NCBI RefSeq assembly: GCF_000196895.1
Contig: NC_014297.1
Span: 1,370,119 to 1,434,118, forward strand
From: Halalkalicoccus jeotgali B3
Lineage (GTDB): Archaea; Halobacteriota; Halobacteria; Halobacteriales; Halalkalicoccaceae
Length of the DNA: 64,000 nucleotides
Direction of reading: 5' to 3'
Notes under the pieces: generated by a model
Database searches by the model: none
Seen by the model: only the letters and a program-made list of their open reading frames with translations
Told to the model about the DNA's origin: nothing
Shown: piece by piece, positions 2,202-16,898 of the stretch
How positions within the stretch are numbered: position 1 is the first letter of the stretch
How the letters are laid out: each line of letters opens with the position of its first letter
Translations under genes and position numbers: made by a program

Positions 2202-3383
2202 ATGGAGGAGCGAACGTGCGCGTATCTCCGGGGGCGCTTTGGCGACCACTATCGCCGAGCGACGGTGAGTCCGCCGCCCGGAGCCGGCGAACGCGAGTGG
2301 GGGTACATTCCGTGGCGCACGGGCGGGACGACGATGATCCGCCATCGCTCCCTGCTCGACCTCGGCGACATCGACGACTTCCTCGCGCGCGAACGCCCGC
2401 GACACGTCTACTTCTCGGCGGGACGGTACGACGATCCGGGGGCGGGCTCGATGGGCGAGAAGGACTGGCGTGGCTCGGATCTGATCTTCGATCTGGACGC
2501 CGACCACCTGCCCGGCGTCGTTCCGAGCGAGGACTCCTACGGGGAGATGCTCGCCGACTGCAAGGAGGCGCTGTTCAAGTTGCTTTCCTTTCTCGATGCG
2601 GACTTCGGGTTCGAGGAACTGACGGTCGTCTTCTCGGGCGGACGGGGCTATCACGTCCACGTCCGGGACCCAGGCGTCCAGGACCTCGAACGCGACAGCC
2701 GGCGCGAGATAGTCGATTACGTCCGGGGGATCGGGCTGGATTTCGAGGAGCTGATCGTCCGTGAAACGGTCGCGGGCCTCGGGCGGCGAACCCCTGCCGA
2801 AAAACGCACCCTCGATACCCGCGGCGGGTGGTCAAAACGGGCCCACGAACACGTCCTCGATCTCGTCACCGAACTCGTCGAACTGGCCGACACAAACGAG
2901 GAGACCGCCATCGACCGGCTCCGCGAGTTCGAGGGGATCGGCGAAGGGAAGGCCAGAGCCGCGCTGACGGCGATGACCGAGAACCGCGCCGAAATCGAAG
3001 CCGGGAACGTCGACGTTCATCCGGCCTTTTTCAGCCTCGCCCGGCAGATCGCCGCCGAGAGCGTCACCCGGGACAACGCGCCCATCGACGAACCGGTCAC
3101 GACCGACACCAACCGTCTCATTCGCCTCCCCGGAAGCTTACACGGGGGCAGCGGGCTCGCGGTCAAACGCTTGGACCGCGAGGAACTCGACGACTTTGCC
3201 CCGTTGATCGACGCGGTCCCGGGGACGTTTCGGAACCACGAGATAACCGTCGAACTCTCCGAGTCCCGTCGAGTGGAGTTAGGCGGGCTCGACCGCTCGC
3301 TTGCGCCCGGAACGCACACCCTACCCGAGTACGCGGGGATCTTCCTGATGGCGCGCGGGTGGGCTGAGAAGAGCCGCGAGTGA
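2202..3383 (+). CDS. priS: DNA primase small (catalytic) subunit PriS
   Basis: Catalytic subunit of the archaeal/eukaryotic-type primase, which makes RNA primers for replication and works with PriL (not in this window). The catalytic Asp pair is visible in LIFDLDADHL (D97 and D99 by my count), followed by the SGGRGYHVHV block (about 145-154) of the nucleotide site and by TTDTNRLIRLPGSLHGG near residue 300, which holds the third acidic residue. The 393-residue length is normal. A TATA-like cctatatc (2170-2177) is about 28 bases before the ATG. It lies upstream of the GINS gene, so two replisome parts are clustered. Confidence 0.96.
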   Translation: MEERTCAYLRGRFGDHYRRATVSPPPGAGEREWGYIPWRTGGTTMIRHRSLLDLGDIDDFLARERPRHVYFSAGRYDDPGAGSMGEKDWRGSDLIFDLDADHLPGVVPSEDSYGEMLADCKEALFKLLSFLDADFGFEELTVVFSGGRGYHVHVRDPGVQDLERDSRREIVDYVRGIGLDFEELIVRETVAGLGRRTPAEKRTLDTRGGWSKRAHEHVLDLVTELVELADTNEETAIDRLREFEGIGEGKARAALTAMTENRAEIEAGNVDVHPAFFSLARQIAAESVTRDNAPIDEPVTTDTNRLIRLPGSLHGGSGLAVKRLDREELDDFAPLIDAVPGTFRNHEITVELSESRRVELGGLDRSLAPGTHTLPEYAGIFLMARGWAEKSRE

Positions 3384-3418
3384 AACAGTTAAGAGGATCG
3401 GGAATGACAGTCGGGGAT

Positions 3419-3532
3419 ATGCACTTACTGTCGGACGCAAACCATTGTGCGAGTTCGCCGAACCGTTGTGGCGAACTCGCACAATCAGTTGCAGCCGATA
3501 GTAACTGGTTCGTCGAGGAGGTGTGCCGGTAG
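3419..3532 (+). CDS. Candidate 37-residue micro-ORF before GINS
   Basis: An ATG-started frame of 37 codons that ends in TAG directly against the GTG start of GINS (no gap). A TATA-like gttaag (3388-3393) lies about 28 bases before its ATG, the usual leaderless spacing in this window. The peptide has three Cys and includes the stretch NHCASSPNRCGELAQ. Most of it is encoded by a large palindrome, so the reverse strand reads a closely similar peptide (CASSPQRFGELAQ). This weakens the coding argument: it may be a real microprotein, or the leader of the GINS message folded as RNA. No function is recognised. Confidence 0.35.
   Translation: MHLLSDANHCASSPNRCGELAQSVAADSNWFVEEVCR
3421..3508. repeat. 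88-base imperfect palindrome between priS and GINS
   Basis: Two 39-base arms (3421-3459 and 3470-3508) are inverted copies with 31 of 39 matches by my alignment, around a 10-base loop. The inner 16 bases are perfect: attgtgcgagttcgcc at 3444-3459 and its reverse complement at 3470-3485. As RNA this would form a very stable hairpin immediately before the GINS start. It could be an attenuator, RNA processing site, repetitive palindromic element or protein-binding site. No flanking target-site duplication was seen. Confidence 0.8.
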
Positions 3533-4369
3533 GTGGATCTCGGCGAACTCCAGTCGGTCAAGGACACCGAGCGGGGCAAGGACAGCCTCCAGCACCTCCC
3601 CGATTCCTTCTACACCGATGTCGCGGATCACATCGCGTCGCTGAAAGACGAGCGAAGCGCACGCGCGAACGAGGCCGACGACCCCTTCGGCGACCCCGAG
3701 GTCCAGCGCCTGACCGGCGAGATCGACTCGACCGAGCAGGTGGTCACCTCGATTTACGAGCGCCGAGTGGGGAAACTCGTCAAACTCGCGAGCTTCGCCG
3801 CCGCCGACATGCCCGCCGACGAGGAGGGACTCACGAGCGAGGAGCGCGAACTGTTCTCGGACCTCGTCGCTCGGATCAAGGAAAACCGCGGGCACGTCCT
3901 TGACGTACTGGCCGGCGAGACCGACCCCGACCCCGTCGAACCGGCCGACGGATCGCCCGAATCGACGCCCGATTCGCCCGACCAGCCCGATCCGACCGAG
4001 GAGCCGTCGGAACCGACCGACATGGGGTCCGAACCCGACTCGACGGTCACCGCCGCCGACCTCATGGGCGACGGCTCGGAACCCGAGAGCGTGCCCGCGA
4101 GCGCTGGCGCGATGACGGACGAACCCGACACGGACGACGTGGCCGGTCCTGCCGGGCCATCCGACCTACCCGAACCGTCCGAACCGGACCGCGCGGACGA
4201 TGACGACGGGCGGGTCGAGCGGACCACCCTCCGGATCACCCGCGACGTCGGCGAGATCGTCGGGGTCGACGACCGCGAGTACGAACTGGCGACCGACGAC
4301 ATCGTCACCCTCCCCGAGGTTAACGCCGGCGCGCTCCTCGAACGCGAGGCCGCCGAACGCCTCGACTAG
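3533..4369 (+). CDS. GINS complex subunit (Gins51/Gins15-type)
   Basis: A component of the archaeal CMG-like helicase that bridges MCM with GAN/Cdc45 and primase. The N-terminal helical A-domain (about 1-120) begins MDLGELQSVKDTER and contains the ERRVGKLVKLASF helix. A long Asp/Glu/Pro/Ser/Thr-rich linker (about 125-220) follows, then a small beta-rich B-domain (RTTLRITRDVGEIVGVDD, about 222-239, to the end). A-before-B order marks the Gins51/15 class. The GTG start abuts the stop of the preceding micro-ORF. Position behind priS fits joint replisome expression. The linker is low complexity and unlikely to fold. Confidence 0.88.
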   Translation: MDLGELQSVKDTERGKDSLQHLPDSFYTDVADHIASLKDERSARANEADDPFGDPEVQRLTGEIDSTEQVVTSIYERRVGKLVKLASFAAADMPADEEGLTSEERELFSDLVARIKENRGHVLDVLAGETDPDPVEPADGSPESTPDSPDQPDPTEEPSEPTDMGSEPDSTVTAADLMGDGSEPESVPASAGAMTDEPDTDDVAGPAGPSDLPEPSEPDRADDDDGRVERTTLRITRDVGEIVGVDDREYELATDDIVTLPEVNAGALLEREAAERLD

Positions 4370-16700: not shown

Positions 16701-16898
16701 CTCGGACTCCCGTGCTACGACCGTTCCACCCACGTCCGGCGCCACCGGTCGTCGATACGTATTGTGTACTGATAACATATATTATTTAGTACCGATCGCC
16801 GAATCGGTGGCCGAAGCGAGTTTTACGGTAACCGGTACCGGTGCCCTTCGCCTGCTAACACCACCTTTAGGACCTTCGCGCCGAACCGTCGAACTGCA

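Follow-up and report, generated by a model that had tools for sequence, protein, structure and literature searches.

A palindrome between priS and GINS in Halalkalicoccus jeotgali B3, in all probability a copy of a dispersed 78-bp MITE-like element

In the stretch of DNA analyzed here, 64,000 nucleotides from Halalkalicoccus jeotgali B3 (hereafter, the window), a long palindrome lies between priS and a GINS gene. The genome from which the window is derived consists of a 2,809,118-bp chromosome and six smaller contigs, 3,698,650 bp in total. The identities of both flanking genes, as given in a preliminary description of this DNA, were verified by profile matches (Table 1); a match of the GINS gene to the NCBIfam family Gins23 falls under the family cut-off. 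The palindrome was also correctly placed within the leader of a replisome gene: it sits inside a leader open reading frame (uORF), the TAG stop codon of which stands directly against the GTG start codon of GINS.

Table 1. Features at the priS-GINS junction, with positions in the window.
Feature	Position	Strand	Basis
priS, DNA primase small subunit	2202..3383	+	NF001639, E = 2e-207
TATA-like box TTAAG	3389..3393	+	25 nt upstream of uORF ATG; spacing kept in genus and sister genus
Leader ORF (uORF), 37 codons	3419..3532	+	Position and frame conserved in 10 genomes of the taxonomic family
Left target-site duplication ACT	3423..3425	+	Comparison with G004 empty site
78-bp palindromic mobile element, TACTGTCGG...CCGATAGTA	3426..3503	+	R3, E = 4.8e-17; G004 empty site; family consensus and ends
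Right target-site duplication ACT	3504..3506	+	Comparison with G004 empty site
GGAGGTG, Shine-Dalgarno-like, within uORF end	3517..3523	+	9 nt before GINS start; sequence
GINS protein gene, Gins51_C domain	3533..4369	+	Gins51_C, E = 3e-7

The palindrome was confirmed and greatly exceeds what chance would produce. Its arms, 3422-3459 and 3470-3507, are complementary at 31 of 38 positions (82%) around a 10-base loop, in agreement with the preliminary description, compared with 27 matches for the best inverted repeat of 38 nt found elsewhere in the window and a maximum of 28/38 in 30 Markov-resampled 64-kb sequences. Mismatches occur along the arms, whereas the core pairs perfectly. As RNA, the palindrome folds at -53.2 kcal/mol versus -27.6 kcal/mol for shuffled sequences (z = -8.0). 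Nearly the same peptides, CASSPNRCGELAQ and CASSPQRFGELAQ, had been read from the opposite strands, and both were confirmed in the translations; they arise because the length of the palindrome keeps the two frames in register, as would be the case for any such palindrome.

The leader ORF is itself a conserved feature. Ten genomes of the taxonomic family share the same layout: about 25 nt behind a TTAAG box, an ATG opens a short ORF, and this ORF ends in a stop codon that either touches the GINS start (TAG|GTG) or overlaps it (GTGA). Relatives without the insert have a leader ORF of 10-13 codons (10-11 in the genus and 13 in the sister genus), for example MDWFVEEVCR, and the Shine-Dalgarno-like motif is represented by GAGGTG or near variants in most relatives. 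The spacing from the TTAAG box implies that the uORF start is probably leaderless. Most of the other haloarchaeal families examined have no such spacer, the GINS start overlapping or directly abutting the priS end, whereas a leader ORF is present in the family of the window. Termination-reinitiation coupling is known for touching genes in Haloferax (PMC6728339), and by this analogy uORF and GINS may be translationally coupled: ribosomes would start at the presumed leaderless ATG, terminate at the uORF stop codon touching the GINS start and reinitiate there (PMC6728339).

We found that the leader carries an insertion. In the sister species G004, which carries an empty site, the sequence reads ATG-G-ACT-GGTTCGTCG, the next bases after ACT being GGTTCG; in the window the filled site reads ATG-C-ACT-[78 bp]-ACT-GGTTCGTCG. 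Comparison of the two sites therefore defines the window copy as a 78-bp insert with a 3-bp duplication, and the outermost base pairs of the arms described earlier turn out to be the target-site duplication rather than part of the element proper. The empty site thus shows that one copy was inserted right behind the start codon of the conserved leader ORF. The copy is in + orientation, as read from an asymmetric internal loop (ACC / CAG), and its target, ACT, deviates from the TNA that is usual for the element family described below.

For the search for further copies that the preliminary description had proposed, covariance models were required: they disclosed a dispersed family, whereas plain BLAST of the palindrome against its own genome returned the palindrome alone and no second copy. 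BLAST against relatives gave nothing convincing except the GINS leader, and an end-motif search of the same genome with mismatches allowed gave 13 matches, as compared with 7 for the control, with little besides the two ends of the window copy. A covariance model built from the palindromes of the window's genome (G000) and its congener G001 recovered dispersed copies in congeners: about 23 in G005, about seven in G002 and one each in others. Model R3, whose sources are other genera alone, recovers the window copy (E = 4.8e-17), and matches another, older copy in that genome (C1:2515285-2515370; L399:1001-1086) with mutated ends, GACACCGTCGG...GGTGGTGT. Elsewhere in the window, positions 16786-16841 of the - strand give a weak R3 match (18.5 bits, E = 0.011 for the window), which is either a decayed copy or chance. 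L136 and other weak matches to model R1 fell outside the family and were discarded. In G005 (L005), half an arm is matched upstream of aIF1; this match can be no more than a truncated copy, and is partly ancestral promoter sequence, since most other congeners carry CCCGACAGTGTTTAATAGG at that place.

With model R2, for which 11 candidates were scored per genome, the family was detected at E <= 1e-3 in at least 177 of the 392 sampled genomes of the order, which represent 51 of 95 genera. When the whole phylum was sampled, the 30 genomes that were positive all fell in this order. Carrier genomes contain from one to about 100 copies, and some have about 47 to 100 nearly identical ones. The exact end motif occurs 95 times in G108 and 211 times in G207 (taken as Natribaculum breve), the reversed control pattern occurs in neither, and the copies within each of these genomes are almost identical. 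Copies nested within older copies were also seen (L188 and L193). Rfam gave no relevant match to the element, even at E <= 5, virus and phage collections gave no match, and a literature search for the end sequence in a haloarchaeal context gave none among the matches listed. The family seems to be undescribed, being absent from Rfam and the open literature searched; a catalogue entry in ISfinder may nevertheless exist.

The family element is 78 bp long and palindromic from end to end, save for a conserved internal loop of three to four bases on each side; it starts with TACTGYCGG and terminates in the complement of this motif. In the alignment of copies (A3), the common ends are TATACTGTCGG...CCGAYAGTATA, and the internal loop is asymmetric (AAGCC left, CAGTT right), which gives the element a polarity. 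The structure appears in the substitutions as well: 20 of 25 pairs have undergone compensatory change, far more than shuffled or slid controls gave, and standard base pairs occupy 91% of the paired cells (n = 29 copies). A set of 92 distinct copies was drawn from named genomes, among them Natribaculum, Halomicrobium, Halostella, Haloarcula, Halapricum and Halostagnicola. The length is exactly 78 bp in 85 of the 92 and the flanking trinucleotides are equal in 86, nearly always TNA, with TGA or TCA making up 79. Target duplications matched in 40/41 pairs from G108, and in 30/40 in another count.

Near-identical copies, 3-bp duplications and nesting together identify the element as a small non-autonomous DNA transposon. 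By its anatomy, the family is a MITE: it is short and transposase-free, has terminal inverted repeats, a fixed-length duplication and empty sites, and occurs as many near-identical dispersed copies. We therefore consider it highly probable that the palindrome upstream of GINS is a copy of this short, MITE-like transposon, tolerated where it landed and with at most an incidental effect on GINS. A mobile palindromic element was among the options offered in the preliminary description, and it is the one borne out by the dispersed copies, the fixed 3-bp target duplication and the empty sites in relatives.

The element is inserted at a staggered cut of 3 bp, mostly at (Y)TNA(R), which generates the 3-bp target duplication. 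Because the element itself carries no gene, it would be moved by a transposase acting in trans. We infer this enzyme, since no autonomous element with the family's ends was found among the 30 DDE_Tnp_1 loci of G108 and G207 or in 400 kb of G207. A 1.5-kb inverted pair in G108 was considered as an autonomous parent and was rejected: it is an ISH8-like IS inside a copy of the element (L215:1055-2551), with a 437-aa transposase and its own 10-bp duplication, CTTTACGAAC. A second palindromic repeat, of about 108 bp, was noticed on a G207 plasmid (L232:6345-6452 and L236:6706-6813), and also beside copies in L185 and L211. Its ends are nearly the same (TACTRCCGGACRACA) and its hairpin is different (CGATCGCG...); it has itself been a target of the 78-bp family, whose copies entered it at roughly one point. 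The two repeats probably share a mobilizer.

Copies are found between genes, frequently right on a stop codon. On the annotated plasmid pLC1Hm-01 of Halomicrobium sp. LC1Hm, the gene table of which is incomplete, all 11 copies are intergenic and five lie exactly at a stop codon. Among TGA/TAA-flanked sides in G207, G108 and others, 11 of 35 (31%) close an open frame that is 150 codons or longer; among 418 control sites bearing this motif, the share is 5.5%. Duplication of a TGA or TAA target regenerates the stop codon, so that insertion there is harmless to the protein, and the family would persist mainly between genes and at such stop codons. Selection against insertions elsewhere suffices as an explanation of this bias; a preference of the transposase may also contribute. 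In L224-L228 of pLC1Hm-01, several stop codons are directly followed by TACTGCC-type ends (for example at L224:18548, L227:400 and L228:7951), and these ends have the look of older copies sitting on the stops. A further possibility, to which the compensatory stem changes and the retained internal loop and polarity would point, is that the whole hairpin is constrained, being moved or acting via a folded strand, and that the copies at stop codons serve as host mRNA 3'-end signals across haloarchaea; we regard this as unlikely. Counts of G.U versus A.C mismatches, which bear on a constraint at the RNA rather than the DNA level, are 20:8 in the genus and 11:13 in other genera.

Within the genus, the exact GINS-leader position is occupied in three species, by net inserts of 81 nt in G000, 78 nt in G001 and 81 nt in G005, all multiples of three. 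The leader is without insert in G002, G003, G004 and G006, that is, in four of the seven species, and all three genomes of the sister genus are without the hairpin; the empty site is less exact in G002, G003 and G006 than in G004. A tree built on the flanking genes places G004 as sister to G000 (support 99/99). Since G004 is empty, at least one further gain or precise loss at this site must be assumed. The inserts of G001 and G005 are much decayed, with R2 scores of 20.6 and 17.0 bits and no match to R3, and such scores hint only weakly at membership of the element family. With inserts so decayed, repeated insertion, an old insertion with precise losses, or exchange between species may each account for the history of the site.

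A neutral insertion may have been co-opted later, with the hairpin or the 27 extra leader codons tuning the translation of GINS. The window copy contains no in-frame stop codon within the uORF, and inserts at one place in three species, all of a net length divisible by three, would fit such a role. However, any 78-bp element that brings a 3-bp duplication retains the frame automatically: 81 nt are 27 codons, and the uORF frame was thus left open. Reading through is also no peculiarity of this copy. Among genus copies in the same orientation, 8 of 29 would be open, but so would 13 of 27 copies from other genera, and hence the lack of a stop codon would be at best a faint sign of selection. Overall, we judge co-option rather improbable.

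The preliminary description had also suggested an RNA thermometer or attenuator controlling GINS, in which a conserved cis-acting hairpin at the 5' end of the mRNA would block or time translation of the leader ORF and GINS. The palindrome lies in a presumably transcribed leader, its fold is very stable, and the inserts of both G000 and G001 can form a stem. As an evolved function, such a device is nevertheless very doubtful: the insert is present in three species of the genus and absent from four, the sister genus has the leader without it, hundreds of unrelated loci carry this palindrome too, and an Rfam match is absent. The preliminary description had named relatives with a non-palindromic spacer as the observation that would reduce the palindrome to an accident of one strain. 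Such relatives exist and they count against regulation, but the palindrome is no accident of one strain, because it belongs to a repeat family found across the order.

Similarly small is the probability that the element is REP-like or PATE-like and travels as single-stranded DNA through the action of a hairpin-recognizing transposase of the IS200/IS605 (Y1) type. The compensatory changes that maintain the hairpin and the conserved asymmetric loop, with the polarity it confers, would suit such an enzyme, whereas the clean 3-bp duplication of 86/92 copies would not, as IS605-type elements and PATEs leave none (PMC3119063). Finally, a local quasi-palindrome produced in a single strain by template switching during replication, to which imperfect arms around a perfect core might point, can be dismissed as extremely improbable, being refuted by the R3 match to the window copy and by a family whose members, spread over many genera and unrelated loci, keep to a fixed length and a fixed target duplication.

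As a MITE family, the 78-bp element is a mobile element of nearly half of the sampled haloarchaeal genomes, yet neither Rfam nor the open literature searched seems to have a name for it. It accounts for hairpins scattered over gene ends and leaders that would otherwise be mistaken for regulatory RNAs or terminators, and offers a clean 3-bp-duplication system for tracing the transposase, including in genera that have laboratory strains, such as Haloarcula hispanica. For GINS, an apparent regulatory hairpin is removed, and a leader ORF conserved in the taxonomic family is revealed instead.

Tourist/PIF-Harbinger and IS5-type groups produce 3-bp TNA or TWA duplications. Tourist/PIF-Harbinger MITEs such as mPing (PMC4561436) and the IS5-type likewise duplicate 3 bp of a palindromic target, and mPing is known to excise precisely (PMC4561436), which, if it also applied here, would explain the empty sites inside the genus. 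The likeness is confined to the target duplication, and neither a related transposase nor a related terminal sequence was found. Rickettsia palindromic elements (RPE) are palindromic inserts within coding sequences. As with the window copy, their insertion keeps a coding frame open (partly covered in PMC2229807); unlike RPE, most copies of the 78-bp family are intergenic, and the window copy lies in a leader ORF and not in a protein gene.

Bacterial palindromic MITEs, reviewed in PMC2229807, include ERIC, RUP, Correia/NEMIS and the Yersinia element YPAL. Like ERIC, RUP, Correia and YPAL, the 78-bp element is shorter than 200 bp, encodes no protein of its own, and has terminal inverted repeats or dyad symmetry and target duplications; like them, it is dispersed and mainly intergenic, with some copies read as parts of ORFs (PMC2229807). 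The bacterial elements mostly carry or duplicate TA, whereas the 78-bp family duplicates 3 bp, mostly TNA. The family further differs from the bacterial elements in that it is wholly palindromic, is not low in G+C, is archaeal and has no sequence match in Rfam. Among haloarchaea, Haloquadratum walsbyi harbors MITEs, SMRs and PATEs (PMC3119063), which are similarly small, transposase-free mobile repeats. Its SMRs, of about 110 bp, resemble the 78-bp element in their inverted terminal repeats and in lacking a known parent transposon (PMC3119063). By their descriptions, SMRs and PATEs leave no target duplication (PMC3119063), and the 3-bp duplication of the 78-bp family sets it apart from both.
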